Numbered from the stretch's first letter, positions 1 through 18,821 are shown. The stretch: DNA of 41,253 nt from Chloroflexota bacterium (GCA_034717495.1 JAYELL010000046.1:1-41253), one strand, 5' to 3'. Numbers and translations: made by a program. The notes: generated from the letters alone by a model not told the origin.

Positions 1-1132
1 GGCCTCCTGGATAACGCTCTACATCACCCTGACCGGACGGGTAGACGGCGATGGCAATCCACTACCCGATCTGACCTTCTACAACGGAGTCTTCGTCAAC
101 GTGGAGCACCGGGACAAGCAGTGGCTGGAGAACCACGGCCTTTGGCTAGATGGCCAAACCTGGCTCTACAAATACAGCGATCCCTACAGCCCCGATATCA
201 AAGAAGGACCTGACGGCGATAGCCCCGCCTATCAGGCCCTCCTCTTCAAGCCTTTCCAGGAATGCAAGAAGCCTCGAGACTGCAACACGCAACCCACCGG
301 TCAGGATTTCGTGGATACACTCAATCAGTGGATCAACATGGAGGGCATGCTGGCCTTTGCTGCCACAAGTGCCTTTCACATCAGCCCCGACGACCTCTTC
401 TCCAAGGGTAAAAACTTCTACTTCGTCGACTACAGCCAGACCGTGGACACCCCTCGTGAGTATATCGAGTGGGACCTGGACGCCGCCTATCAGGGCATGG
501 ACTACACAGCTGATATCTACGATGTTGGCGCCCGCAAGTTCGGCGTCTATGAGGATTGGATCGTCGACGATGGTACCTTCAAGGCTGAATATACTGAGAT
601 CATGCAGCGCCTGCTTGACGGGCCACTGAATGAAACCGATATCAACGATGCCCTTTCAGACTTCGAGGCGCTGCTCGGTGACGCCCTGGCGGCCGATCCT
701 CACAATGCCCTGGGTGATCCTGTGCCCGAGTACTTCTCAGATTTCCGCACCTGGCACTCGAATCGCATCGCCAGCGTGCTCAGCCAGTTGCCCTCGACGC
801 CACCCGAACCGGGGAACCCCGAGACGGCTCTGTATGTTGGTGCACTTGCCGGAGAAAGCGCGCCCGCGCCCAAGAACCGCTGGGATGCCACGGTCACGAT
901 CACTGTTTTTGTTGACCCTGAATCCCCTGACACACCATTCGAAGCCGCGACGGTATCGAGTGATTGGGGCAGCTGTGAAACCGATGACTCCGGAACGTGT
1001 CAGATCAGCAAGAACAACATCAAGAGCAATGTTGCCAGCGCTACCTTCACCGTCGCCGACATCACTGCGGATGGCATGTGGTACGATGCCGATGCCAACG
1101 CGGTAACGTCGGTCACTATCTATAAACCATAG
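1..1132 (+). CDS. CotH-kinase-like secreted protein, copy 1 (5' end outside window)
   Basis: The open frame runs from base 2 without a start, so the N-terminus lies upstream. About 376 residues are visible. The family signature is clear: a beta-hairpin NG-V-F-V-N-V-E-x-x-D-K-Q segment, then LYKYSDPY, INMEGML, the NFYFVDY strand and the acidic motif EWDLDAAY (near base 466-490), which matches the conserved catalytic/metal-binding aspartates of CotH atypical kinases. Known CotH proteins phosphorylate secreted proteins; the substrate here is unknown. After the kinase region (from about base 795) the C-terminus is an Ig-like beta-domain (NRWDATVTITVFVD ... CQISKNN), which differs from the C-terminus of copy 2. 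Bases 1-127 are identical to 1897-2023 of copy 2, pointing to recent duplication or gene conversion. No membrane anchor follows. Confidence 0.85.
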   Translation, partial: ASWITLYITLTGRVDGDGNPLPDLTFYNGVFVNVEHRDKQWLENHGLWLDGQTWLYKYSDPYSPDIKEGPDGDSPAYQALLFKPFQECKKPRDCNTQPTGQDFVDTLNQWINMEGMLAFAATSAFHISPDDLFSKGKNFYFVDYSQTVDTPREYIEWDLDAAYQGMDYTADIYDVGARKFGVYEDWIVDDGTFKAEYTEIMQRLLDGPLNETDINDALSDFEALLGDALAADPHNALGDPVPEYFSDFRTWHSNRIASVLSQLPSTPPEPGNPETALYVGALAGESAPAPKNRWDATVTITVFVDPESPDTPFEAATVSSDWGSCETDDSGTCQISKNNIKSNVASATFTVADITADGMWYDADANAVTSVTIYKP

Positions 1133-4613: not shown

Positions 4614-7600
4614 ATGTTGACAAACAAAGAAAAACCGAGGCGCTCCGGCGGCACCAAAGGCGCTCGCCGGCGCACCACATGGGCGGGATTGGCCATAGTC
4701 CTGGCAATGCTCGTTGCCCTCTTGCCGGGAACGTTGCCTGCTATCGCTACCACCACGCCGACATTTGACGGCTTTGTCGACCCGCAGTACCTGACCTTCG
4801 GCACAACCGTGTCCTTTGCCGGCGTCGGCACCGGGGCAAATCTGTACGTCATCGACGATGCCGACGACGGCAACATCTGGCTGACCTGGGAGATCGACCG
4901 CAGTTTCGTCGACAACAGTTATGACGATGACGGCGTCAACGGCCAGAGCCAGCATCCCTCCTGGGCGCCGGGCTACCAGCACCGCTTCCGCGACCTGGCC
5001 GAGAGCGACCTGCAGCAGATGCAATTTTACAACAGTTGCGGTGAGCTGGCCGTGCATGTCACCATGGACTACATCGACGGCTACGGAGGCCTGGAAGCCT
5101 GCGGCGGCCTCAAACCCGTTCCCGTCATCGGCGGCAAGCTCGACATCAACGGTGGCGGAATCGGCGACGGAACCACTGACCCGGCTGATAACGGTTCCTA
5201 CTTTGGTATCGAAATTCTCAACGGATGCCTGGACCTGGACGGCGATGGCACTTCCTGTCCCGACACGAACACCGGCGCTTCAAACGTCTTTGGCGGCACC
5301 GACGATCATGCAGCGGCAGGGGCCGGCTTTTTCGGGCTAGCGCCCACCTCCTGGCAAATCATCGATGGGATCCTGCAAACCGCAGATACCACTTATTCCG
5401 GCATCAATCTTATCGCCGTCACCGGCGGATACGCCGTTGACATGAACCTGGATAGCAGCATCACTGCGGCTGACAATGGTTCGCTTAGCGGGATTACCGT
5501 CACAGCCGGTGTCCTTTCGGCACCCGATGGACCGTTTCAGCCCAATCCGGCATTCACCGTTGCCAGCGGCCTGATCCAGGAGCCTGGTCCCTTGTACCCA
5601 TCCGGCTGCGGAACCATCCATTCCAACACCAACTCGGGCTACGATGCCAACCTGTACACCAGCGAATCCATCCGCTGGTCAATCAATGGTGACGACTGGA
5701 CCAAGTTTGACTACACCACCTCTTTGGTCGGCAATCTAAACCTTCCGGTTCCTCGCAGCGCCGGTCCTACTGCTTCCGGATACTGCGTATATAATCCCGC
5801 AGGCCTGCTTCCTGGAGGCGAGGGAGATTGCGACAACTATGGCCTAAATCAAGGTGACCCAGGTCCACCCCCAATTGCACCAGCACCAAATGACCTGCTC
5901 GGCAATCAGAGTCCCTACGGTGCAGAGTCGCCCTCCTGGGAGACTCCCCCGGGCACCGACTACGTGCCTCAGGCCGCCTACACCGCCGGCTGGGAGTACA
6001 GCCTGATCTACGAGATGAAGATCGACCCCAGCGTGTTTGTTACCACTAACTGTCCGGCTGGAGGCATCAGTCCATACCTGACCAAGCCGCTCGAGTTGCA
6101 CGCCTCTCCCAACAAGCTGGGCGACACCTATGTTCCCGTCCGCGTTGTTTTCGGCGCCATCGGCAACTACGTCTGGCTGGACGAGAACAGCGACGGCTAC
6201 CAGGATGCTGGTGAGCCGGGCATTCCCAACGTGGCCGTAGTGCTCTACGACAAGGAAGGCAGCGAGATCGCCCGCACCTACACCGACTCCCACGGTGGCT
6301 ACCTGTTCACCCGCGATTCCGCAGGCGAGCCCCTGTCTGCCGGCCTCTATTATGTGGATGTGCTCGACGGCACCGACACAACAGCTTATACGCTGCCTCA
6401 GCAGGATATGACGCAGACAACGCCCAGTACGCTGGCCGACGCCGACTTCGGCAACCAGGATCATGGCTCGACGTCGATTCCGAGCACGGCCTTTACCGGG
6501 TATGAAGTGATCATTGGCGGCGCGCTGCCAATGGAAAACCTGACGGCAGACTTTGGTTATAACTACAACCCCGACAGCGACGTCAACGGCGGCACCAACT
6601 TAGCCGCCCTGGGCGACCGGGTCTGGGTCGATACCGACGGCGACGGCGCGCAGGATCCCAATGAGATCGGTGTCTCCGGCGTGGAAGTGACGCTTTACTA
6701 CGATCAAAACCAGGACGGCGTGTATGACGAACCTTATTCCGTGGGCGGTTATGTTCCAACCACGACTACCGACGCCAACGGCTACTACCTGTTTGACGAC
6801 TTGCCAGCTGGCGCTTATGTGGTGACGGTCACAGGCGACACGGGCGCCAGCCACGATATTCTCGGCACCTACACTCAGACAGGCGATCCGGACGACTTTG
6901 GCCAGCCGGCGACATCGCCGGACAATACGACTACTGTCGCGGTAATCCTCGGTCCTGGCGATGTCTTCCTCAACGCCGACTTCGGCTATCAGCCGCCGGC
7001 CGATGTTACCGGCGAAATCGGCGATACCATCTGGTTCGATGCCGACATTGATGGAAATGGCCCCGCATTGCCTCCCGCCAACGATCCCGGTGGCGCTCCG
7101 GTCAATCAGGGCAATGGCGTCGAGGATGACAGTAATGAATACGGCATCCCAGGGGTAACGGTTGCCTTGATCAAGGACAGCAATGGCAACGGCGAGTGGG
7201 ATGCCGGCGAGCCGATCGTCGCCACCGACACAACCGACGCGAAAGGCCAATACCTGTTCCAGGGTCTGCCCGTGACCATCGGCACAGATGACTACCTGGT
7301 GTGGGTCAACGACACAGACAACGTTCTCGGCTGGTTTAAGCCCACCTACGACGCGGACGGCCCACTTCTGCCCGCCGGTGGCCTGGTCACTGGACTGGGC
7401 ATTAGTTCGGTCCTGGATCTGACCACCGACACGGCGGCGTTCATGGACCAGGACTTTGGCTATACGCCGCTCGAACATGAGGTAGACAAGGGCTTGATCG
7501 GCGACACCATCTTCTATGATGCTGATCCAAACGACGGTAACGCCTACAATCCTGCCGCGGGCGACACGCCCATCGAAGGCGTACTGGTGCAGTTGTGGAA

Positions 7601-9149
7601 TCGCCAGGGCAATAAAGTTCTAGCGACCACCGCGACCGATGAAAATGGCCTCTACTACTTCGGTGGCCTGGATCCCGATAGGTATCAGGTCGAAGTTTTT
7701 TCCGGCAACTTCCTGCCCGGTGGTGTATTGGAAGGGTTCGCCAACACCGCCGACCCCGACAATGACCAGGACAACAACTCCGGCGTGGTTGATATCCGAA
7801 ATAGCCCCTATATCGATCTGGACCAGGATTTCGGCTACCGGGCAACGGACAATCCTGGCTCTATCGGCAACCTGATCTGGGAAGACCTGAACGCAGATGG
7901 TGATGTCGATGCCGGTGAGAATGGCATCGAGGGCGTGACCCTGGACCTCTACCGCGACCTGAACGGCGACGGCGATGTCGATCCCGGAGAGCCGCTGATT
8001 GGCACCACCAAGACCGATGGCAGTGGCAACTACCTGTTCGAAGGTCTGTCCACGACGGATAACGGCGTAGGAGCAGCTGGTGCAGACTACATCGTCGATG
8101 TGACCGATGTGGACGGCGTGCTGCATGGCTACTGGCATTCCCTGGGAATCGCCGGGGCTGACAACAACAGCCAGTTAGACCCGTATGCGGTCTCGATCAG
8201 CGTTGCCAGCCCGGACAACCTGACGGCGGACTTCGGCTACTACGTCAAGCCTGCTGCCGTGGGCAACTGGGTCTGGACCGACATTGACAAGAACGGTGTT
8301 CAGGATGATGGGGAGACCGGCATAAATGGGGTGGTGGTGCAACTGGGGATCGCATACCCCGATGGTACCGCAATTACCCTTGTCACAGTCACCGCCAACG
8401 ATCCGGAAGGTAGCAGTCCCGGCTGGTACAGCTTTGGTAACCTGCTGCTGGACGAGGATTACGCGACGAGCAGCGGAACCTTTGGGGCTGCCCCCAACCA
8501 GCCTGCTCATGTGGTTTCAATAACAGTGCCCCCTGGCTACTACAAGACCTTAATCAACGCCGCAGGCAGCACGTTTATGAACGACTCCGACAACCACGAC
8601 GGAACGCCCGCGCAGGCAACCCAGGGTCAGAACGACGTGACGCGAAATGCTGATCCTGACGCGGAAAGCAACCCGAATGCGGGCTACGACTTCGGTCTGA
8701 CCGACACTCCGCTGGCGGTGTTGCTGGCTGACTTCGCGGCTGCAACCCAGGCGAATCATGTCCTGGTCAGCTGGGCCACGGTCAGCGAACTCAACAACGC
8801 CGGCTTCAACATCTACCGCAGCCTCTCGGCCGGTGCCCCTGAAACCCTGCTGAACTACGTGCCCTCCCAGGCGCCCAACTCTGCCCAGGGTGCCGATTAC
8901 AGCTACGCCGATCTTGACGTCGCTGACGGCCAGACCTACTGGTACTGGCTGGAGGATGTGGACACCAGCGGCGCTACCAGCCTGCACGGGCCGGTCAGCG
9001 TCACCTTCATGGCGCCCACCGCTGTCACCCTCAGCGACCTGTCCGCCAACGACCAGCCCGAAAGCCTGAACTGGTTGTTGCTGGCTGCCATGGCCCTTGC
9101 GGCAGTGGTCGCAGGCTTTGCCTGGCGCCGCCGCATCGGTGTGCAGTAA
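4614..9149 (+). CDS. Giant secreted SdrD_B-repeat surface protein with C-terminal membrane anchor
   Basis: 1511 residues; ATG follows AGGAGAG with good spacing. The N-terminus has a basic stretch, then a hydrophobic signal (LAIVLAMLVALLPGTLPAIA). Residues ~40-510 form a unique region with two Asp-rich, dockerin/EF-hand-like segments (KLDINGGGIGDG... near 172 and VDMNLDSSITAADNGS near 270). Six SdrD_B-type repeats follow, each opening with a G-[NDT]-x-[VI]-W-x-D-x-[DN]-x-[DN]G calcium-loop-like motif, at about bases 6157, 6604, 7015, 7495, 7858 and 8257. These domains are rigid Ca-binding stalk modules in surface adhesins. The last ~145 residues duplicate the fibronectin-like module and tail anchor of CotH copy 2 (...LNWLLLAAMALAAVVAGFAWRRR). 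No LPxTG is present. Likely a cell-surface filament or adhesin; substrate or partner unknown. Its placement beside CotH kinases makes it a candidate substrate or partner. Confidence 0.85.
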   Translation: MLTNKEKPRRSGGTKGARRRTTWAGLAIVLAMLVALLPGTLPAIATTTPTFDGFVDPQYLTFGTTVSFAGVGTGANLYVIDDADDGNIWLTWEIDRSFVDNSYDDDGVNGQSQHPSWAPGYQHRFRDLAESDLQQMQFYNSCGELAVHVTMDYIDGYGGLEACGGLKPVPVIGGKLDINGGGIGDGTTDPADNGSYFGIEILNGCLDLDGDGTSCPDTNTGASNVFGGTDDHAAAGAGFFGLAPTSWQIIDGILQTADTTYSGINLIAVTGGYAVDMNLDSSITAADNGSLSGITVTAGVLSAPDGPFQPNPAFTVASGLIQEPGPLYPSGCGTIHSNTNSGYDANLYTSESIRWSINGDDWTKFDYTTSLVGNLNLPVPRSAGPTASGYCVYNPAGLLPGGEGDCDNYGLNQGDPGPPPIAPAPNDLLGNQSPYGAESPSWETPPGTDYVPQAAYTAGWEYSLIYEMKIDPSVFVTTNCPAGGISPYLTKPLELHASPNKLGDTYVPVRVVFGAIGNYVWLDENSDGYQDAGEPGIPNVAVVLYDKEGSEIARTYTDSHGGYLFTRDSAGEPLSAGLYYVDVLDGTDTTAYTLPQQDMTQTTPSTLADADFGNQDHGSTSIPSTAFTGYEVIIGGALPMENLTADFGYNYNPDSDVNGGTNLAALGDRVWVDTDGDGAQDPNEIGVSGVEVTLYYDQNQDGVYDEPYSVGGYVPTTTTDANGYYLFDDLPAGAYVVTVTGDTGASHDILGTYTQTGDPDDFGQPATSPDNTTTVAVILGPGDVFLNADFGYQPPADVTGEIGDTIWFDADIDGNGPALPPANDPGGAPVNQGNGVEDDSNEYGIPGVTVALIKDSNGNGEWDAGEPIVATDTTDAKGQYLFQGLPVTIGTDDYLVWVNDTDNVLGWFKPTYDADGPLLPAGGLVTGLGISSVLDLTTDTAAFMDQDFGYTPLEHEVDKGLIGDTIFYDADPNDGNAYNPAAGDTPIEGVLVQLWNRQGNKVLATTATDENGLYYFGGLDPDRYQVEVFSGNFLPGGVLEGFANTADPDNDQDNNSGVVDIRNSPYIDLDQDFGYRATDNPGSIGNLIWEDLNADGDVDAGENGIEGVTLDLYRDLNGDGDVDPGEPLIGTTKTDGSGNYLFEGLSTTDNGVGAAGADYIVDVTDVDGVLHGYWHSLGIAGADNNSQLDPYAVSISVASPDNLTADFGYYVKPAAVGNWVWTDIDKNGVQDDGETGINGVVVQLGIAYPDGTAITLVTVTANDPEGSSPGWYSFGNLLLDEDYATSSGTFGAAPNQPAHVVSITVPPGYYKTLINAAGSTFMNDSDNHDGTPAQATQGQNDVTRNADPDAESNPNAGYDFGLTDTPLAVLLADFAAATQANHVLVSWATVSELNNAGFNIYRSLSAGAPETLLNYVPSQAPNSAQGADYSYADLDVADGQTYWYWLEDVDTSGATSLHGPVSVTFMAPTAVTLSDLSANDQPESLNWLLLAAMALAAVVAGFAWRRRIGVQ

Positions 9150-9249: not shown

Positions 9250-9696
9250 TCTCCCCCCAGCCCCCCAAAGGGGGGAGCGATCAGAAATTCCTCCCTGTGG
9301 GGGGGTAGGGGGGGGCACGCCCGGACTACCCCCCGCGCCACCGGCATCCCTGCGGCAGCAACGACCATGGACTCCCACCTTCGCGGGAGTGACGTGTTCA
9401 CACCACCATCGTCTCCGTGTCCCCCCTCGCCGTGTCTCCCATCCCCGCGTCCCCGCGTCCTTCGTGCCCTTCGCTCCCTTCGCGCTTTGCGTCCTTCGCG
9501 TCCCTCCGCGCCTTCGTGGTCCAACCCCTCCCCGCGTTCGCGAGGATGACAGCGGGAGTGACGCGGCTAAATGGCCTTTTGCGCCGCGTCCCCGTGTCCC
9601 CGCATCCCCGTGTCCCTGCGTCCCCGTGTCCCTGCGTCCCCGCGTCCTTCGCGTCCCTCCGCGCCTTCGTGGTCCAACCCCTCCCCGCGTCCCCAC
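9250..9696. repeat. CT-rich intergenic repeat array 1
   Basis: Low-complexity, GC-rich DNA built from short phrases such as CCCCGCGTCC, TTCGCGTCCCTCCGCGCC and TTCGTGGTCCAACCCCTCC. It includes a longer unit (GGATGACAGCGGGAGTGACG... at ~9542-9600) that recurs twice at 19.2-19.4 kb. A small palindrome-like element GACTCCC/GGGAGT is at ~9369-9390. The array ends exactly at the stop codon of the regulator gene (9697). Open frames across it are pseudo-repetitive (Pro/Ser/Arg or Arg/Glu/Gly) and not genes. Confidence 0.8.
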
Positions 9697-11391
9697 TCAC
9701 TCGTTGTAGTAAAGATCTACGTTCGAGGAGTCTATAAACACGTGCTCCATGTAAACCGCCGGCTGTATCGACTGCCCTTCCAGGATACGTTTTGCCAGTT
9801 CGATCAGCTTCTCCCCATAGCGATCCGGCATGAAGGCTGTCGATCCAATGATGGCTGAGTTTCGCTTGCGAATCTCGTTGCGGACGACCCGGTCAGCCCC
9901 CTGACCAACGATAGCCACGTCGGCTTCCCGACCCAACTTACGCGCTGCCTTCAGCGCACCGTAGGCGGCATCATCGTTGAAGGAAAACACGGCGATTCGT
10001 TGGCCTTCGGGAACCGACTGCAACGCCTCAGCGACGTGCATTTCGCTCACCTGGCTTGTATTGCCGCTGTCCAGATAGATCCGTTTCTCCTCAGGAATTG
10101 GGCCCATCACTTCCTGGTAACCGTCCACCTGACCTGTGATCCTCGATGCGGGCAATGCCCCTGCACGTTGTTCCTCCAGAATCACCAGCCGATCATACTG
10201 GCCCTGCCAATGCTCTCGGACCCATTTGCCCAGCTCGGCTCCCGCGATGTGTCCCGATCGATAGTTGTCTGCGCCAAAAAAGGTCGCCCCTACCATGGGG
10301 ATATCCACGGCAATCACGGGGATCCCTGCCTGCAAGAATCTGTCCATGATCAAGCTGTTGATTTCGGCGTCAATCTGATACTCGATTGCCAGGTCGACCT
10401 GCTTTTCGATCAGGTAGTCGGCGACCTGTAGCGCCTGTTCGCCGCTGAGCTGATTATCGGCAAGGATTAGCTCCACCTGCTGTGCCTCTGCTGCTCGCTC
10501 CAGTCCACGCCGTACATCGATGGCAAAGGGGATTCCTGTTTCCGTTAGATTGGCAAAGCCGATACGGTAGGTTGGTTTGCGCCCATTGCTGCGGTAGTTG
10601 GTAACCGTACGCTCGTCGCAGACAGTCACCGATACGCCAGCCTGCTGCAACAGGTTGATGAAGGAGGGAGACACCTGGCTGTCCGTAACCACGTGAGAAA
10701 GCGAATCCACGTTCAGAAAAGGTGCAAAACCCACCTTGCCGAACTTGGTAGAATCGACCAGTGCCACCACCTGTGGCACTTTCTCTACCATTGCATGTTT
10801 TAGCTGCGCTTCCGCCACATCGCGTTCGGTCAGACCTTGCTCGAAATTAAAGCCGGTTCCGGAGACGAACGCTGTGCGCGCGTGAAGCCGTTCCAACATG
10901 TCAGTGCCCAGCAAGCCCGTTACGGAGTTATCGTTGGTCCCCATTATGCCGCCGACAACGATAACTGTGTGGTTTGTTGATTCGGACAGAAGGCGGGCCG
11001 TTTCCAGTCCGTTAGTTATTACCGTCAAACGCTGGCATGGCTGCAAACAGGGCACCATATGCAGAACCGTAGAACTGGCATCCATAATGATGGCGTCGCC
11101 ATCCTCGATCATGTCAGCGGCCCAGCGTGCGATACTTCGCTTTGCCTCGGTGTTGACCGCGTTGCGGGCAATGCGGGTCTGGGCGATCAGCGGAGGTTGC
11201 TCAACCGGTGCGGCGCCACCTCTCACCCGCCTCAAGCGGTTCTCCGCCTCCAGAGCCGCCAGATCGTTGCGGATAGTGCCTTCGGATACGTCAAACTGTT
11301 TTGCCAGGCTAGTGACTTTGACGACGCCTTGCCCGGCGAGTAGCTGCAGAATGCGCTCGCGCCGCTCGAATGTGGTCATGTGTGGATTCAT
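9697..11391 (-). CDS. Three-domain transcriptional regulator: DeoR HTH + DeoRC + periplasmic-binding-protein domain
   Basis: 564 residues from the ATG at 11391 (AGGAC 5 bases upstream); an upstream in-frame ATG at 11403 lacks an RBS. Residues ~5-60 are a DeoR winged helix (RRERILQLLAGQGVVKVTSL ... VSEGTIRNDLAALE). Residues ~70-240 are the DeoRC phosphosugar-sensing domain (DGDAIIMDASSTV, ITNG, GG). Residues ~265-560 are a sugar-binding (Peripla_BP_4/LacI-type) domain: YRIGFANLTETGIPF, IPVIAVDIPM, GATFFGADNY, FSFNDDAAYGALKA. Classical DeoR regulators are ~250 residues and end after DeoRC, so this is a fusion of two sensor types. The added domain closely matches the binding protein encoded divergently at 11735, implying recognition of the same unphosphorylated ligand. 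No signal peptide; cytoplasmic. Probably controls the divergent import operon and itself. Confidence 0.88.
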   Translation of the reverse strand: MNPHMTTFERRERILQLLAGQGVVKVTSLAKQFDVSEGTIRNDLAALEAENRLRRVRGGAAPVEQPPLIAQTRIARNAVNTEAKRSIARWAADMIEDGDAIIMDASSTVLHMVPCLQPCQRLTVITNGLETARLLSESTNHTVIVVGGIMGTNDNSVTGLLGTDMLERLHARTAFVSGTGFNFEQGLTERDVAEAQLKHAMVEKVPQVVALVDSTKFGKVGFAPFLNVDSLSHVVTDSQVSPSFINLLQQAGVSVTVCDERTVTNYRSNGRKPTYRIGFANLTETGIPFAIDVRRGLERAAEAQQVELILADNQLSGEQALQVADYLIEKQVDLAIEYQIDAEINSLIMDRFLQAGIPVIAVDIPMVGATFFGADNYRSGHIAGAELGKWVREHWQGQYDRLVILEEQRAGALPASRITGQVDGYQEVMGPIPEEKRIYLDSGNTSQVSEMHVAEALQSVPEGQRIAVFSFNDDAAYGALKAARKLGREADVAIVGQGADRVVRNEIRKRNSAIIGSTAFMPDRYGEKLIELAKRILEGQSIQPAVYMEHVFIDSSNVDLYYNE

Positions 11392-11446
11392 TTTTGTCCT
11401 CATGCCGGTGTCGCACGCGATTTCCAGGCGATTCCTCTGATTTTCC

Positions 11447-11475
11447 TTGACACAAGTTGTTGTTTATGATATCAT
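11447..11475 (+). promoter_or_regulatory. Promoter of the sugar-import operon
   Basis: TTGACA (11447-11452), 17-base spacer, TATCAT (11470-11475). Predicted start near 11482, giving a ~250-base leader before the binding-protein gene. The -10 lies inside the 14-bp palindrome TTATGATATCATAA (11464-11477). Confidence 0.65.
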
Positions 11476-11520
11476 AACGAGTAAGTTTCGTCAATCATCA
11501 ACAATTTTCGACAACTTGTG
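11451..11520. promoter_or_regulatory. Candidate operator sites of the fusion regulator
   Basis: CACAAGTTGT (11451-11460) and its exact reverse complement ACAACTTGTG (11511-11520) flank the divergent promoters. Each contains the small palindrome ACAA-N-TTGT, with centres 59 bases apart. Between them lies the palindrome at 11464-11477. The arrangement suits repression by a dimer or tetramer, possibly with looping; binding is inferred only. Confidence 0.5.
11466..11494 (-). promoter_or_regulatory. Divergent promoter of the regulator gene
   Basis: Read on the minus strand: TTGACG (11494-11489), 17-base spacer, TATCAT (11471-11466). It overlaps the forward promoter and uses the same palindrome for its -10, so two polymerases could not occupy the site together. 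Predicted start near 11459. Confidence 0.6.
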
Positions 11521-11734
11521 CCTTACCTCACGTAACAGTCCTGTCAGCGTGCTTCTCGATAGAGGAGGTGATGCGTCAAAGCCTGACGACCCGACGATCC
11601 GCAGCCTCTTCGTTGCGCTGCAAGTCTTCCCTTGTTTCCTTCGATCCGAGAAACAGGACATGCGCCCCGTCGATTCCCGAAGTCGTGCTAATCTTGGCAC
11701 AGCGAAGCTCTCAGTCCCTTCCTGGAGGAAAAGA

Positions 11735-12811
11735 ATGAACCCCACAACGTCGAAACAGTTACTGATCATCGTCGCCATCATTCTGGTGGCCGGCCTCGTC
11801 ACAGCTTGCGCCGCCCCAGTCCCCATGCCTGCCGAACAGGTGACCGTAGTAGAGACGGTCATTGTAACGGAGGTGGTCGAGGTAGTGGCCGAAACCGAGT
11901 GTGAAACGGCAAAGGACAGCTATAAGATCGGCTTTGCCAACCTGACCGAGGACATCGTCTTCACGCAGCTCGTGCGCGAGAGCATCGAGCGCGAGGCCGA
12001 GAAGGCGGGTAACATCGAACTGGTCCTGGCGGACAATAAATTGGACGGCGCCACCGCGCTTGCCAACGCGGACAACTTCATCCTGCAAGGTGTGGATGGC
12101 GTGATCGAGTTCCAGACCGACGAGAAGTTCGGCAACGTGATGATGGATAAATTCCGCAAGGAAGGCATCCCGGTGATCGCCATCGACATCCCCATGCCGG
12201 GAGCGACCTTCTTCGGTGCCGACAATTACGGCGCGGGGTTTATGGCAGGCGAGGCCGCTGCCAACTGGGCAAAAGAGAACTGGGAAGGCCAGGTCGATGC
12301 CCTCCTAGTGCTTGAACTGCCCCAGTCGGGCCCGATTCCAGAAGCCCGTATGCAGGGCCAGGTGGAAGGCCTTCTGGAAAATCTAGACGTTGAGGTACCG
12401 GAAGAGATGATCTTCTACCTCGACAGCAAGAACACCCAGGATGAAGCCTTCCGGGTCGTCGGCGATACCCTGCCCAAGATTCCTGATGCCAGGCACGTAG
12501 TCGCTGTCAACATCAACGAGGGCACGGCGTTAGGCACGATTGCCGCCTTTGAGGCAGCGGGCCGCAGTGAGGATATCATCGTCGTGGCCCAGGGTGCAGA
12601 TCCCTCCGGCCAGGATGAAATGGTCAAAGAAGGCAGTCGCCATATCGGCTCCACCGGCTACTTCGCGGAGCGCTACGGTGAATACCTCATTCCAGCAATC
12701 ATCGACACGCTGGAATGCAAGTCGCTGCCGCCAGCTATCTACGTGGATCACGTCTTCATCAACGCTGATAACCTGTGCGAATACTACCCCGAGCACAGTG
12801 CCTGCAACTAA
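11735..12811 (+). CDS. Sugar ABC transporter substrate-binding lipoprotein (RbsB-like)
   Basis: 358 residues; ATG 11735 follows GGAGG. The N-terminus is a lipoprotein signal (KQLLIIVAIILVAGLVTAC) with the lipid-carrying Cys at residue 25. The rest is a type I periplasmic-binding fold of the Peripla_BP_4 family: YKIGFANLTEDIVF, LVLADNKLDG, GIPVIAIDIPM, GATFFGADNY, TALGTIAAFEAAGR, IVVAQGADPSG. It delivers an extracellular sugar-like ligand to the permeases encoded downstream. The ligand cannot be named. It is strikingly similar to the C-terminal third of the divergent regulator at 9697-11391. Confidence 0.9.
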   Translation: MNPTTSKQLLIIVAIILVAGLVTACAAPVPMPAEQVTVVETVIVTEVVEVVAETECETAKDSYKIGFANLTEDIVFTQLVRESIEREAEKAGNIELVLADNKLDGATALANADNFILQGVDGVIEFQTDEKFGNVMMDKFRKEGIPVIAIDIPMPGATFFGADNYGAGFMAGEAAANWAKENWEGQVDALLVLELPQSGPIPEARMQGQVEGLLENLDVEVPEEMIFYLDSKNTQDEAFRVVGDTLPKIPDARHVVAVNINEGTALGTIAAFEAAGRSEDIIVVAQGADPSGQDEMVKEGSRHIGSTGYFAERYGEYLIPAIIDTLECKSLPPAIYVDHVFINADNLCEYYPEHSACN

Positions 12812-12903: not shown

Positions 12904-13908
12904 ATGACTACGCCAACTGCCTCGCCGGGGAGATCGCAGCCTGACCTGATGGAACGCCTCCGGGCAAGGGGCTTGAGGGTCAACAATTTCGTCAGCCTGG
13001 TGGTGATCTTCCTTATCATCTGTGCCGTCTTGTCCATCCTCTCACCCTATTTTCTGACCCTCGAGAATTTCAAGAACATCGGGCGCACCATGCCGGTCGT
13101 TGGCATCATCGCCATCGGAGAGACCCTCGTCCTTATCGCCGGTGGGGTCGATCTATCGGTGGGATCGGTGGCAGCCCTGTCCGGCGTTGTAACCGGGCTG
13201 TTGTGGGAAGTAGTTGGCTTGCCCATCGGCATCGCAGCTGCAGCGGGGCTGGCCAGTGGCGCGTTCATCGGGCTTATCAACGGCTTGTTGGTCACACGGC
13301 TACGCATCAACGCCCTGATCAGCACGCTGGCAACCTTCTCCATTGTGCGCGGCCTGGCCTTCGTTTTGACCAATGCCCAGATGAACCAGCTCACAGACCC
13401 GGGATTTCTTTTCCTGGGGCGTGGCGAGGTGGGGATCATTCCGGTGCCGTTTATCCTGATGTTGATTCTGTATGCCATTTTCATTTTCATCCTTCGGCGC
13501 ACACCCTTTGGCAGAGATCTGTACGCCATCGGCGGTAACCCGATGGCTGCCCGCCTGGTCGGCATATCAACCAGACGTAACGTCCTTGTCGTTTTCGTGA
13601 TCAGCGGCCTGCTGGCCGGCGTTGGTGGTCTGGTGCAGGCGTCGCAGCTGGCAGCCGGCGCGCCCCAGGCCGCCGTTGGTCTGGAGTTCACCGTGATTGC
13701 CGCCGTTGTGCTGGGAGGGACCAGCTTATCAGGTGGCAAGGGAACGCTTGTTGGCTCCTTCCTGGGCGTGATCATTCTGCGCACCCTGGACAACGGTCTG
13801 ATCTTGACCGGCGTATCCGCTTACTTTCAACAAGTCGCCCGTGGAGCGGTTCTGATCCTGGCGGTCGGGCTGGATCAACTACGCACAAAATGGTCGGCCA
13901 GGCGATAA
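12904..13908 (+). CDS. Sugar ABC transporter permease 1 (RbsC-like)
   Basis: 334 residues, ATG preceded by AGGAG. A multi-helix membrane protein of the branched-chain/ribose permease family: LSPYFLTLENFKNIGRTMPVVGIIAIGETLVLIAGGVDLSVGSV, the conserved INALISTLATFSIVRGLAF, FGRDLYAIGGNPMAARLVGI (ATPase-contact loop), and LGGTSLSGGKGTLVGSFLGV. It forms the membrane channel with the second permease at 15454, served by the ATPase at 13925. Two different permeases suggest a heterodimeric channel rather than the RbsC homodimer. Confidence 0.92.
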   Translation: MTTPTASPGRSQPDLMERLRARGLRVNNFVSLVVIFLIICAVLSILSPYFLTLENFKNIGRTMPVVGIIAIGETLVLIAGGVDLSVGSVAALSGVVTGLLWEVVGLPIGIAAAAGLASGAFIGLINGLLVTRLRINALISTLATFSIVRGLAFVLTNAQMNQLTDPGFLFLGRGEVGIIPVPFILMLILYAIFIFILRRTPFGRDLYAIGGNPMAARLVGISTRRNVLVVFVISGLLAGVGGLVQASQLAAGAPQAAVGLEFTVIAAVVLGGTSLSGGKGTLVGSFLGVIILRTLDNGLILTGVSAYFQQVARGAVLILAVGLDQLRTKWSARR

Positions 13909-13924
13909 GGTATGACAAAGGATT

Positions 13925-15457
13925 ATGACAGAGAGCACTGATAGTCGTCCAACTCTGGAGATGATCGATATCTCCAAAAGCTTTTTCGGCGTGAAAGTCC
14001 TGGACGAGGTGTCAATTGACCTCTTTCCAGGTGAGGTGCTGGCCCTGGTGGGCGAAAATGGCGCGGGCAAATCGACGTTGATCAAGATCCTGAACGGCGA
14101 CTACCGCAAGGATGGCGGCGCCATCGTCATCGACGGCCAACTGGTGGAGATCGAACACCCACGCGATGCCGAAGCGTTGGGCATTCACATGATCTACCAG
14201 GAATTGCATCACTGTCACGAGCTGTCGGTCACCGAGAATCTTTTACTCGGTCATCTCCCGCGAGGCAACGGGCCCGTCGGCAAGTACATTGTCGACTGGA
14301 AGAGGGCGCGCGCGATCGCAACAGAGCAGATCGAGATGTTGGGCCTCGAGATCGATCCCCTGGCCTTGATGGGCGAGTTATCGGTGGTGGAACGCGAGAT
14401 CGTGGAGATCGTCAAGGCGGTGTCCTCCAACGCCCGAATCCTAGTCATGGACGAGCCCACGGCAGCACTGACACCCCACGAGGTTGATCTCCTCTTTGAG
14501 ATCGTAGCGACTCTGCGCAAGCAAGGGGTCGGCATCATCTACATCTCTCACCGTCTGGATGAGATCTTTCAAATCGCCCAACGCGTGACCGTATTGCGTG
14601 ATGGTTACAAGGTTGGCACTGAACGGGTGGTCGATGTGACGAAGCATGATATCGTCCGCATGATGGTGGGTCATGAGGTCGAGGAGCGACAGCCTGACGA
14701 TCTACAGGTTCAGGAAGATGGCCGTCCCCCGATCCTGGAGGTCTCCCATCTGACCAGAACAGGCGCCTTCGAGGATGTCAGTCTGGAGGTTCACGCCGGT
14801 GAGATCGTGGGCATTTTCGGCCTGCTGGGCGCCGGACACTCAGAGCTGACCCGCACACTCTTCGGCGCAGAACGGGCCGACAGCGGGGAAATCCAGGTCG
14901 AGGGCAAGCCGCTTGTCATTCACTCGCCCACCGACGCGCGGCGGGTTGGCATCGGGCTGGTACCAATCGATCGCAAACAGCAGGGGCTTGTGTTGAGCCA
15001 AAACGTCCGTGAGAATCTCACCCTCTCCAACTGGCCGGCGATCTCCCGCTTCGGCTTTTTTCAGCGCGGATCAGAGCGGCAGCACGCCCAAACCTGGATC
15101 GACCGTCTGGGCATCCGCGTGGCCGGCGGTATGGAGGTCGAAACCCAGTTCATGAGCGGTGGCAACCAGCAAAAGGTTGTGCTGGGCCGCTGGCTCGAGG
15201 CCAACGTTAAGATACTGCTCATGAACGAACCAACCTGGGGCGTCGACGTTGGCGCGCGTTCGGACATCTACGACCAACTGGAGGGTCTGGCCGAACAGGG
15301 ACTTGGTATTCTGATGGTTTCCTCGGACATGCAAGAGGTCTTGTCGGTCAGTCACCGCATTATCACTATGTTTCAGGGCAAGGTCACCGGCGAGTTCGCT
15401 GCCAGCGCGGTTACCCAGGAAGAACTCTTGAACGCAGCGGCCGGAGGTGAAGCGTGA
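13925..15457 (+). CDS. Sugar ABC transporter ATPase with two ABC domains (RbsA/MglA-like)
   Basis: 510 residues, the usual length of the CUT2 fused ATPases. Domain 1: Walker A GENGAGKST (near residue 45), signature-like LSVVEREIVEI, Walker B ILVMDEPTAAL. Domain 2: degenerate Walker A GLLGAGHSEL, signature MSGGNQQKV, Walker B ILLMNEPTWGVDVGAR; the degenerate second P-loop and the Asn in the second Walker B are normal for this subfamily. It starts 16 bases after the permease stop and its stop overlaps the next start by 4 bases, so the genes are translationally coupled. It powers import of the unknown sugar-like ligand. Confidence 0.93.
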   Translation: MTESTDSRPTLEMIDISKSFFGVKVLDEVSIDLFPGEVLALVGENGAGKSTLIKILNGDYRKDGGAIVIDGQLVEIEHPRDAEALGIHMIYQELHHCHELSVTENLLLGHLPRGNGPVGKYIVDWKRARAIATEQIEMLGLEIDPLALMGELSVVEREIVEIVKAVSSNARILVMDEPTAALTPHEVDLLFEIVATLRKQGVGIIYISHRLDEIFQIAQRVTVLRDGYKVGTERVVDVTKHDIVRMMVGHEVEERQPDDLQVQEDGRPPILEVSHLTRTGAFEDVSLEVHAGEIVGIFGLLGAGHSELTRTLFGAERADSGEIQVEGKPLVIHSPTDARRVGIGLVPIDRKQQGLVLSQNVRENLTLSNWPAISRFGFFQRGSERQHAQTWIDRLGIRVAGGMEVETQFMSGGNQQKVVLGRWLEANVKILLMNEPTWGVDVGARSDIYDQLEGLAEQGLGILMVSSDMQEVLSVSHRIITMFQGKVTGEFAASAVTQEELLNAAAGGEA

Positions 15458-16443
15458 GCGATCCCGCGGCACTCGCAACAACACCTGAACAACAATCTCT
15501 ACAGGACAGGCTCAAAGCATCGGCTTTGCAGGAAGGCGCCGGGTTGGTGGTGATGTTACTCATCATCCTCGTGGTCATGTCCCTGTTGTCCCCCTATTTC
15601 CTGACGGCGAGAAATTTCTCGAACCTGCTGTTATACAGCTCCGCCATGGGCATCATTGCCATGTTCACCACCATGCTCATGGTGGGCGGTGGGCTGGATC
15701 TCTCGGTCGGCTCGACCGCGGCCCTGGTCGGCGTGGTCATATCTCAAAATCACAATTCCCTGGGCGTATGGGGAGCGGTGGCGTTGGGCCTGGTTGTGGC
15801 GATCGTCGTCGGCCTGATCAATGGTTTTCTGGTTACGCGCGTCGGCATCAACGCGCTCATCACGACGCTCGGCATGTTCTCCGTGGTACGCGGCCTTGCG
15901 TTCGTGTTTTCAGGCGGGCTCACCGAACTCATGCTCGATGAAACGTTTGGCGAATTGGGCAGGGGTGAGGTGGCTGGCATTCCCATGCCGGTAATTGTCT
16001 TCGCGGTGGCCACCATTGGCTGTGCCATCGTCATGCGTACCACACAATATGGTCGGGCAATGTACTCGATAGGCGGCAACGAAACGGCCAGCTTCCTTGC
16101 CGGTTTGCGTACGAAGCGCTATCAGATGATAGCGTTCGTGCTTTCGGCTCTCAGCGCCGGAGTCGCCGGCATTCTGCTGACCTCACAACAGGGCGCGGGC
16201 GCGCCACAGGCGGCCACCGGTCTGGAGATCAGCGTGATCGCAGCGGTGATTCTGGGTGGCACCAGTCTGGCCGGCGGCAAGGGCACCATTCTCGGCACGC
16301 TCATCGGCGTGTTGATCCTGGGCACGCTGACCAACGGCATGATCCTGTTGGGCGTTTCGGCCTATTATCAGCAGATCGCCCAGGGCCTGGTGCTGCTACT
16401 GGCCGTGGGCATGGACCAACTACGCACGCGCTCTGAGGCCTGA
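15454..16443 (+). CDS. Sugar ABC transporter permease 2 (RbsC-like)
   Basis: 329 residues. It starts with GTG (15454) overlapping the TGA of the ATPase gene, with a strong GGAGGTGA upstream. The fold and signatures parallel permease 1: LSPYFLTARNFSNLLLYSSAMGIIAMFTTMLMVGGGLDLSVGSTAALVG, INALITTLGMFSVVRGLAF, YGRAMYSIGGNETASFLAGL, LGGTSLAGGKGT. The two permeases are clear paralogs. It is followed one base later by the SGNH hydrolase gene, extending the operon into catabolism. Confidence 0.92.
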   Translation: MSDPAALATTPEQQSLQDRLKASALQEGAGLVVMLLIILVVMSLLSPYFLTARNFSNLLLYSSAMGIIAMFTTMLMVGGGLDLSVGSTAALVGVVISQNHNSLGVWGAVALGLVVAIVVGLINGFLVTRVGINALITTLGMFSVVRGLAFVFSGGLTELMLDETFGELGRGEVAGIPMPVIVFAVATIGCAIVMRTTQYGRAMYSIGGNETASFLAGLRTKRYQMIAFVLSALSAGVAGILLTSQQGAGAPQAATGLEISVIAAVILGGTSLAGGKGTILGTLIGVLILGTLTNGMILLGVSAYYQQIAQGLVLLLAVGMDQLRTRSEA

Positions 16444-16444
16444 T

Positions 16445-17296
16445 ATGGATCCAGAAAACGCCCTGACGGCAGATGCCAAATCCCAGATCGACTTCAACCT
16501 GCACATGGTCCCGGCAGCCCTGGGGTTGGACGTACCGGATGTCGCCACCGCTGCTATCCTCAACGTCAGTGAGGTTGCCCTGGTCGGCTACATCGCCGAA
16601 ATCGAAACGACGGTCCGGCATACAGCGCAGCGTCTGCTGGAAAAGCATGGCCTGGCGACAGCTCTCGAAAAATGGCCAGTCCCTATGGGTGGCACGATAC
16701 TGGCGGTCGGCGACTCCATCACCACTTATCGCTTCGGTTATGCCCGCATCCTGGCGGCAACGCTCGCCGTACACCGTGTCGATGATGCGATTCGCTTCGC
16801 CAACGTTGGCCAGTCAGGTTACACGTCGACTCACGGGCTTGAGACCACGTTTACACAGAATCTGGACATGAATCCGGACTGGGTCTTTATCAAGTTCGGC
16901 GTAAACGATTGCAAGCGCTTTGGCGGCCGCGCTGCCCGCACCCTGGTTTCTCTCGACGAATATCGGGCCAACATGGCCGGAATTGTGGATGCTTATCAGC
17001 GTTTCACCGACGCCCGGATCATCTTGCTTACCCCCACGCCTGTAGTGGAACAGCTCGCCAACTCGCTTCCCGATTTCGTGGCCATGCGCATGACCTGGGA
17101 CAATACCGATCTGGCCGCTTGCGCGGAGTTCGTGCGTGATCTGGCACGGTTGCGCAACCAGCTCGTTGTCGATCTTTTTGCCATCTTCGGTCCCGATCCC
17201 GACCCAGACTACTTCTTGCCGGATGGTTTGCACCCGAACCGTGCGGGACACGAGATCATCGCAGAACGAGTGCTCGAAACCGTGCGCGACATCTGA
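16445..17296 (+). CDS. Cytoplasmic SGNH/GDSL-family hydrolase
   Basis: 283 residues. The four SGNH blocks are visible: GDSIT (Ser nucleophile near residue 91), FANVGQSG (block II Gly), KFGVNDC (block III Asn-Asp, near 153), and DGLHPNRAGH (block V Asp-x-x-His, near 260). An ~80-residue N-terminal helical extension precedes the catalytic domain. There is no signal peptide, so it acts inside the cell, most plausibly removing an acyl group from the imported compound. The start codon directly follows the permease stop, so it belongs to the import operon. The exact ester substrate is unknown; acetyl-sugar esterase is the best guess. Confidence 0.85.
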   Translation: MDPENALTADAKSQIDFNLHMVPAALGLDVPDVATAAILNVSEVALVGYIAEIETTVRHTAQRLLEKHGLATALEKWPVPMGGTILAVGDSITTYRFGYARILAATLAVHRVDDAIRFANVGQSGYTSTHGLETTFTQNLDMNPDWVFIKFGVNDCKRFGGRAARTLVSLDEYRANMAGIVDAYQRFTDARIILLTPTPVVEQLANSLPDFVAMRMTWDNTDLAACAEFVRDLARLRNQLVVDLFAIFGPDPDPDYFLPDGLHPNRAGHEIIAERVLETVRDI

Positions 17297-17534
17297 GAAA
17301 CAGCATCAAGCCCAAAGAATCTCGTTTTCCGTACAAACCTTGACACGCCATCACAGGTACTTCGGCTTCGTCCCTCGACAAGTTCGGGGCACCGCTCAGC
17401 ACAGGACCTTTGCCACGAACCTGACGGCGAACGAAAACAAATCCGGAACCAGAATAAGTGCAATTGATGGCAGGTCTTTTTTCGCTGGGCAAGTAGACGA
17501 GCGTTTAGGCACTGACAAAGAAGCGGAGGCTACA

Positions 17535-18821
17535 ATGAATTCGCGTGAACGTTTTCTGGAAGTCATGCACTTCAACACCGACGTACGGTCGATGAAGTGG
17601 GAGTTTGGTTTCTGGGGCGAGAACATCAGCCAATGGTATGAAGAGGGCCTGCCCAGGAAATTCGGCACTAACATACCCACCAGCCTGACCACGGTGGGTG
17701 CTTCCCTTTATACAACCGCGTGGACTCACGAGTGGGCAAAGAACCGGACCTACCTGGAGAAGTTCCACCATGAAAGGGAGCGTCCGGTGCCGCTTCCGCC
17801 TGGTATTGCCGTCTGGGGAGGTGCACTGTATTGGCCAAGTCAGGGATTCCCCCTGGCGCTCGATGTTATGGACTATTTCGATTTCGACAAGAGTACGGCC
17901 CTTGTACCTGTTGAGCAGCTTTTTTGTCCGTTCTTTCAGCCACAGATATTGGATGAGGATGATAAGTATCTGGTCTACGTCGATATCGATGGCGTCGAGC
18001 GCCAGTTTCAGAAGGAAGAGGGTGTCATCCCCAGCTCTCGTAAGTGGCCCATTCGGGACTGGGCGAGCTGGCAGCAAATCAAGGAGCAGCGCCTTCGATT
18101 GGACTCTATCCATGAGCGCTTCCCAGACAATTGGGATTGGTGGATCGAGGAATACAAGGGTCGAGACTATCCTCTCTCGGTGGGTGGCTACCCCAACGGC
18201 TATTTCGGAACATTGGTTCACCTGATCGGTTACGAGAACGTTTTCTATTTGTACTACGACCAACCTGACTTGCTCAAGGATATCAATCAGCACCTGACTG
18301 ATCTGTGGATCGCCATCTGGGAGGAGATTCTGGCCAATGTGGAGATCGACTGTTGTCACATTTGGGAGGATATGTCCTCTACCATGGGCACGATGATCTC
18401 TCCTGGCCACTTTGAGGAATTCATGGCGCCCTACTATCGCCAGGTCACCGATTTTCTGAAGGGCAAGGGCGTTGATATCATCCTGGTGGACACGGACGGA
18501 AATATCGAGCTGTTGATACCGCAGTTCCTGGAGGTAGGTGTCACCGGCATGTATCCTATGGAAACCTCAGCTGGCATGGATGTTGTCAAGCTTCGCCAGC
18601 AATACCCCCGCTTCCAGATGATGGGTGGCGTGCCCAAGTACGACATGGCGCTGGGACCGGAGCGTATCGAAGAATTTCTCCAGCCTGTAAACGAGTTGCT
18701 CAAGTATGGCGGCTATGTCCCCCATGGCGATCATCTCATCTCGCCCGGGGTTTCCTGGGAGCAATTCAAGCACTACCGCAATCGCCTCAACCAGATCATC
18801 GACGCCAACGGCAGCGAATAA
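17535..18821 (+). CDS. Uroporphyrinogen decarboxylase/MtaA-type methyltransferase-family protein
   Basis: 428 residues from ATG 17535 (GCGGAGG upstream); the longer open frame upstream lacks a RBS and family similarity. Features of the UroD-like barrel: MNSRERFLEVMHFN at the start, WEFGFWGE, GYPNGYFGTLVHLIGYENVFYLYYDQPDLLKDI, CCHIWEDMS, ISPGHFEEFMAPYYRQV, VDTDGNIELLIPQFLEVGVTG, and MMGGVPKYDMALGPERI. True heme-pathway UroD keeps a different N-terminal Arg-rich substrate motif, so this is more like the sugar-locus paralogs related to corrinoid methyltransferases. It lies 238 bases after the hydrolase; that gap holds a CTTCGGCTTCG/CTCAGCACAGG-type intergenic repeat and no gene. Function in the sugar pathway is unproven; demethylation of a methylated ligand is one possibility. 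Confidence 0.75.
   Translation: MNSRERFLEVMHFNTDVRSMKWEFGFWGENISQWYEEGLPRKFGTNIPTSLTTVGASLYTTAWTHEWAKNRTYLEKFHHERERPVPLPPGIAVWGGALYWPSQGFPLALDVMDYFDFDKSTALVPVEQLFCPFFQPQILDEDDKYLVYVDIDGVERQFQKEEGVIPSSRKWPIRDWASWQQIKEQRLRLDSIHERFPDNWDWWIEEYKGRDYPLSVGGYPNGYFGTLVHLIGYENVFYLYYDQPDLLKDINQHLTDLWIAIWEEILANVEIDCCHIWEDMSSTMGTMISPGHFEEFMAPYYRQVTDFLKGKGVDIILVDTDGNIELLIPQFLEVGVTGMYPMETSAGMDVVKLRQQYPRFQMMGGVPKYDMALGPERIEEFLQPVNELLKYGGYVPHGDHLISPGVSWEQFKHYRNRLNQIIDANGSE

Follow-up and report, generated by a model that had tools for sequence, protein, structure and literature searches.

The window analyzed here is a 41,253-nucleotide stretch of DNA from a Chloroflexota bacterium (GCA_034717495.1, JAYELL010000046.1:1-41253). 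In this window, the gene for a DeoR-family regulator lies divergently to a sugar-uptake operon of the CUT2 type, and the regulator carries a whole sugar-binding protein (SBP) domain behind its DNA-binding and sensor domains (Table 1). An earlier note on this DNA had described the protein as a DeoR helix-turn-helix (HTH) and DeoRC sensor joined to a cytoplasmic periplasmic-binding-protein (PBP) domain, which shares the phrases IGFANLTE and GATFFGADNY with the divergently encoded SBP. The Pfam domain search confirmed that the three domains are present in one protein, and both phrases are indeed common to the fused domain and the divergent SBP, which are 45% identical over 295 amino acids (aa; E 2e-81). 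No signal peptide or membrane segment was found in the fused SBP domain (best 19-residue hydropathy, 1.6; linker, 0.4). Because these elements are absent, the fused domain should be cytoplasmic, as the note had supposed.

The AlphaFold model of the fusion, for which an alignment of 36 fused relatives was used, had a predicted local distance difference test (pLDDT) score of 88.7. Residues 277-568 of this model align from end to end with sugar-binding proteins of known structure (Z 27-29, root-mean-square deviation 2.0-2.8), and the fusion-family profile matches the C-domain of E. coli DeoR (7l6l) over 181 residues (E 4e-19). The fused domain scores 99 bits against Peripla_BP_4 versus 25 bits against Peripla_BP_1, and 38 bits against RbsB versus 23 bits against CcpA. 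These profile scores rule out a LacI-type origin and bear out the assignment of the fused domain to the CUT2 SBPs. Moreover, a LacI-type HTH and hinge are absent from the window protein: Pfam finds HTH_DeoR and no LacI HTH. An assembly chimera as the source of the fusion was also ruled out by full-length relatives with 35-70% identity in dozens of genomes.

Table 1. Features of the window and the regulators of a second domain order. Amino-acid positions refer to the window fusion protein; loci with L numbers are those of relatives.
Feature	Position	Strand	Evidence or remark
DeoR-family fusion gene	9697-11403	-	568 aa; open reading frame (ORF), Pfam, NCBIfam
HTH_DeoR	aa 14-67		PF08220, E 1.3e-14
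DeoRC sensor	aa 84-242		PF00455, E 1.1e-46
Linker	aa about 262-275		
CUT2-type SBP domain	aa about 276-568		Complete; PF13407 Peripla_BP_4 288-544, E 3.7e-28
Sigma-70 promoter of SBP operon	TTGACA 11447-11452; TATCAT 11470-11475	+	17 bp spacing
Probable operator	11486-11515	+	Three direct 10-bp repeats, TTTCGTCAAT CATCAACAAT TTTCGACAAC; first repeat about 10 bp downstream of the -10 box
Exported lipoprotein-type SBP	11735-12811	+	Peripla_BP_4, E 1e-28; ribosome-binding site and ATG
CUT2 permease 1	12904-13908	+	BPD_transp_2, E 2.7e-44
CUT2 double ATPase	13925-15457	+	ABC_tran, two stretches; nearest NCBIfam AraG and RbsA, below cut-off
CUT2 permease 2	15454-16443	+	BPD_transp_2, E 4.9e-36
GDSL-type esterase	16445-17296	+	Lipase_GDSL_2, E 6.4e-23; neighbour cluster C11
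URO-D-like (corrinoid methyltransferase-type) protein	17136-18821	+	URO-D, E 2.6e-10; neighbour cluster C1
HTH-SBP-DeoRC regulator	L068:6917-8653	-	
HTH-SBP-DeoRC regulator	L069:11931-13652	+	
HTH-SBP-DeoRC regulator	L071:1139-2908	+	
HTH-SBP-DeoRC regulator	L193:8004-9764	+	

The spread of the fusion was examined by a protein search of 298 genomes from the same class as the host, with a match threshold of E 1e-60. Hereafter, WIN denotes the window locus, L numbers the loci of relatives and G numbers genomes. Forty of the 298 genomes gave a match at E 1e-60 or better and 38 carry the fused SBP domain; the other two, G003 and G087, have the DeoR part only, and the frame is split in G129. Two more were found outside the class, and the named relatives are Chloroflexi or Anaerolineae metagenome-assembled genomes. 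None of 72,556 plasmid records covers 80% of the query. The host genome itself encodes a second fusion with the domain order of the window protein (42% identity), which precedes an operon for a double SBP, an ATPase, a permease, a rhamnose isomerase and a rhamnulokinase-like kinase. Each part of the fusion comes from a known family. The DeoR-SBP combination, which the earlier note considered not to be a textbook architecture, was not found described in the literature searched (subscription journals lay outside the search), yet the family occurs frequently within this class.

The promoter of the SBP operon is followed by tandem repeats. The same arrangement (TTGACA, 17 bp, a -10-like hexamer and then repeats) is found in seven divergent loci, namely WIN, L077, L078, L079, L081, L084 and L011, and the repeats in these loci are 3-5 direct 10-bp units with the consensus TTTCRACAAN. 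The best three-unit score of the window repeats was 36.2 versus -3.7 (standard deviation 3.0) for shuffled sequences, the window being among the loci from which the matrix was built. When the pattern was searched in the 5-Mb host genome, allowing up to two mismatches, the site in the window was the only one, and the reversed control gave 0. Two other candidates were rejected. An inverted repeat (CACAAGTTGT/ACAACTTGTG, 50 bp apart) was not seen in relatives, and the tandem repeats are preferred to it. A tandem TCGAAA operator of the Chloroflexus aurantiacus type is not present; one TCGAAA lies near the window gene, not in tandem. DeoR-family rhamnose regulators are reported to have tandem-repeat motifs, and C. 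aurantiacus RhaR bound four tandem TCGAAA sites in a gel shift assay and was released by L-rhamnulose (PMC3870299). Because such regulators use tandem-repeat operators, direct repeats at this position, where they overlap the region of transcription start, are in keeping with a repressor of the DeoR type. A direct-repeat operator near the regulated promoter is a trait of the DeoR family, and we infer that the window fusion protein binds these repeats.

We then consider the two ligand pockets. The window protein retains the DeoRC signature (D108, S110, T112, T130, N131, GG151-152, G190, E198, K202, D217 and K220). In the SBP pocket, D367 and R421 are present in all 44 fused domains and N476 in 39 of the 44. 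Because other contact positions differ from those of RbsB, the ligand is probably a sugar other than ribose. The fused domain and the SBP of the window are the same at 12 of 16 pocket positions as compared with 131 of 292 (45%) overall (p about 0.015); because of this agreement, the two probably bind the same or similar sugars. Loss of ligand-pocket residues was not seen in the window protein, and because both pockets look intact, two inputs, as proposed in the earlier note, are plausible and now better supported. Relatives separate the two sensors. Nine fusions (L108-L114, L154 and L155) are without the DeoRC signature (D108 is changed to C or A, T112 to I or L, and K220 to A, S or R, and D217 is replaced); these nine retain D367 and R421, and N476 is kept in eight of them, so that they are candidates for natural SBP-only sensors. 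In contrast, L157, L158 and L159 have no SBP domain and retain DeoRC and the repeats. Because both kinds of member exist, the DeoRC signature and the SBP domain are apparently each dispensable in nature. This dissociation is, as far as sequences can tell, the best available evidence that both domains sense.

The fusion, its age and spread, the two intact pockets and the conserved repeats can be read from the sequences. We propose that the window protein is a repressor of its own sugar-uptake operon, which acquired the SBP domain once as a second sensor, and we give this reading a probability of about two in three (0.68). The repressor, bound to the three tandem repeats after the -10 box, would block the start of transcription of the SBP operon. 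Incoming sugar would close the cytoplasmic SBP domain, and an isomerised or phosphorylated product of the sugar could occupy the DeoRC pocket. Either or both of these events would loosen the oligomer on the DNA, and the operon would be derepressed. The parts of this proposal that we infer are binding of the protein to the repeats, its action as a repressor and not as an activator, its ligands and the way in which the signals combine.

Several points weigh against this reading. D367, R421 and N476 are matched by homology to Asp89, Arg141 and Asn190 of RbsB, which we take to be its sugar contacts. The seven loci in which the repeats were described also supplied the operator matrix; loci outside this set nevertheless score well above shuffles (L091, z 11.7; L159, 8.9; L092, 7.6; L085, 6.9). 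Furthermore, the repeats are weak or were not found in several fusions. The effector characteristic of the DeoR family is a phosphorylated sugar intermediate. Finally, the DeoRC domain of the window protein may not read a phosphosugar, because Chloroflexus RhaR answered to unphosphorylated L-rhamnulose and not to L-rhamnose (PMC3870299).

The SBP domain might be the sole sensor, DeoRC serving as a scaffold for oligomerisation; in that case the sugar would be the inducer, as for LacI or AraR. This arrangement appears viable, given that the nine-fusion clade without DeoRC pocket residues keeps its SBP pocket, and PBP-type domains are the sole sensors in LacI and GntR/AraR regulators. However, the window protein and most relatives have the complete DeoRC signature despite large divergence. 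Because a mere scaffold would not need the signature residues, we consider sensing by the SBP domain alone to be possible but doubtful. The converse, in which DeoRC is the sole sensor and the SBP domain is merely carried along or serves for protein-protein contact, agrees with L157, L158 and L159, which branch within the fusion group and still have the repeats after losing the SBP domain. D367 and R421 are, however, invariant in the 44 fused domains, the SBP domain is whole and has a confident model, and the same three domains were joined on a second occasion in a different order. Sensing by DeoRC alone is thus improbable.

The origin of the fused domain was addressed by a maximum likelihood tree of 80 SBP domains and by a 60-row version without the longest outgroups. 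The window fused domain clusters with its counterparts in fusions from other species (identity to that of L077, 73%; support for the four nearest, 100/99). The window SBP belongs to another group, made up of eight free SBPs that all adjoin fusions (90% identity to that of L077; support 100/98 or better). The main groups of the HTH-DeoRC tree agree with those of the SBP trees, and in the HTH-DeoRC tree too the fusion is one old group, which by these trees arose once, long ago, and then spread through the class. This tree places the SBP-less regulators L157/L159 and L158 within the group, so that their SBP domain was apparently lost later.

The exported SBP of the operon may in turn descend from the sensor domain of the regulator, having been copied out and having gained a signal peptide. 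Both SBP trees place the eight free SBPs amid the fused domains, on a weakly supported backbone. The class search gave free SBPs of this type (65% identity or more) solely next to fusions, and the next closest matches after them are fused domains. However, a tree that keeps all fused domains in one group, with the free SBPs outside it, loses just 1.8 log-likelihood units (p 0.18) and is not rejected, and the rooting depends on distant outgroups. We therefore regard such reverse flow as rather unlikely; it concerns origin and is compatible with the function of a two-sensor repressor. The earlier note had suggested a local duplication of the neighbouring SBP gene, in keeping with the adjacency of the two genes and their 45% identity, and a recent origin of this kind is rejected as extremely improbable because forcing the window-type fused domains and the free SBPs together costs 75.6 log-likelihood units (approximately unbiased test, p 3.3e-69); when the fused domain was compared with neighbouring SBPs, fused domains grouped with fused domains across species and the local SBP with other SBPs, and many fusions adjoin ATPase-permease-permease genes with a different kind of SBP or none.

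A second architecture, in which the SBP lies between HTH and DeoRC, is also present in these genomes. HTH-SBP-DeoRC relatives were found in 21 of the 298 class genomes at E 1e-50, with a few partial or single-domain matches, and the host genome encodes two of them (those of L068 and L069). Three rhizobial plasmids carry full-length relatives (99% cover, 31-32% identity), one of which heads a CUT1-type operon. These proteins are set apart from the window type in both the SBP and HTH-DeoRC trees, which indicate that they arose separately. Their SBP match starts some 50 residues late, and the missing strand-helix-strand sits after the SBP end and before DeoRC. Profile comparison identified this displaced start with a probability of 92.7% (E 4e-7) as compared with under 2% in five control segments. 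In the model (pLDDT 84.5), the displaced segment forms a strand (349-354), a helix (360-376) and a strand (379-384). Structural alignment matches 79-325 with ribose-binding proteins from residue about 48 onward, 107-389 with TpMglB-2, and 388-570 with DeoR (Z 27.6). The SBP of these regulators looks like a natural circular permutation. Tandem SBPs, which are abundant in these genomes, would be an obvious intermediate. As a wider scenario, which we offer tentatively, DeoR regulators independently took in a transporter receptor at least twice, once at the C-terminus and once as a permuted insert between HTH and DeoRC, to give switches that compare free imported sugar with a metabolic product; one input would later have been lost in some lineages, and the exported receptor of the window may stem from the regulator.

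SBP domains occur in further arrangements at the loci of relatives. Proteins with two or three SBP domains in tandem per chain are encoded at L070:5443-8163 (-), L091:1395-4544 (-), L067:9135-11132 (+), L069:1582-3570 (-) and L104:3070-5154 (-); that of L091 scores above the model cut-off as a triple RhaS. At L148:515-2431 (+), a CUT2 permease carries an SBP domain at its C-terminus. The C-terminus of RbsC is cytoplasmic; if that of this permease is too, its SBP domain would face inward and could brake transport. L146:1257-2147 (+) and L147:3711-4601 (-) each encode a 296-aa SBP-like protein that stands alone and has no signal peptide; these are probably cytoplasmic receptors.

The genes beside the fusions give information on the sugar. 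They include rhamnulokinase-like kinases (a 14-locus cluster), RhaI/RhaA, a bifunctional RhaD-dehydrogenase (RhaD-ADH) and a triple-domain RhaS; other fusions adjoin arabinose/fucose-isomerase-like genes, or Opp-type transporters and sulfatases. These neighbours point to L-rhamnose, a similar deoxy sugar or a pentose as the substrate for many members. No rhamnose gene is present among the genes adjoining the window fusion. In L077 and L078, a rhamnulokinase-like gene, just under the model cut-off, adjoins the fusion, and these neighbours suggest a deoxy sugar as the substrate of the window operon.

The ORF of the divergent SBP is listed from 11447. GGAGGA lies five bases before the ATG at 11735, which is likely the start of a protein of about 358 aa; this start gives a lipoprotein-type signal with a hydrophobic stretch ending in TACAA. 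Downstream of the transporter genes, the GDSL-type esterase is kept as an operon member in WIN, L077, L078 and L079. The URO-D-like gene is the last conserved neighbour of the operon, and the true start of its product is probably inside the ORF. Proteins resembling B12-binding and URO-D methyltransferases recur beside such sugar operons (L067:4986-6833, cluster C1 in L103-L106, and WIN), perhaps for O-methylated sugars. Between the end of the regulator gene and the upstream gene (9415-9657), there are GC-rich short tandem repeats with periods of 8, 9, 15 and 16. The ORF at 4614-9149 (+) encodes a surface-protein-like product of 1511 aa with repeated units of the GDRVWVDTDGDGAQD type, which by eye are like SdrD B repeats.

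The usual account of a repressor is that it reads a single sugar signal. The fusion family, which unites a transport receptor and a phosphosugar-type sensor in one repressor, together with its natural single-sensor versions, makes the combination of two metabolic signals on a DNA-bound repressor directly testable. Dozens of Chloroflexota proteins gain a functional label, and the predicted operator can locate their targets. The fusion domains are also ready-made modular parts for sugar biosensors.

The window protein shares HTH_DeoR and the DeoRC signature with the DeoR/GlpR-family repressors (E. coli DeoR, AgaR and GlpR, and C. aurantiacus RhaR) and differs from them by about 300 extra residues, which form the whole SBP domain. 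The operator unit of C. aurantiacus RhaR is TCGAAA whereas that of the window is TTTCRACAAN, and the arrangement is tandem in both. With CUT2 SBPs (RbsB, YtfQ and MglB), the fused domain has the whole fold and the key sugar-contact residues in common. However, those proteins are exported by a signal peptide, whereas the fused domain has no signal and is preceded by HTH-DeoRC. As in LacI/GalR and GntR-type AraR, a binding-protein fold would act as the sugar sensor of a repressor, but the window fusion has another HTH and an additional DeoRC, and its sensor is nearer to transport SBPs than to LacI domains. Hybrid two-component sensors of the BT1754 type (PDB 2x7x), which have a ribose-binding-protein-like regulatory domain, are among the best matches of the window fusion. 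BT1754 senses in the periplasm through the membrane, whereas the window fusion is predicted to be cytoplasmic and to bind DNA itself. TpMglB-2 of Treponema pallidum (PDB 6bgc), which we take to be a topological variant, aligns with the permuted fusions across the SBP end and the displaced start. It is a transport protein and not a regulator, and the likeness concerns the HTH-SBP-DeoRC proteins and not the window protein.

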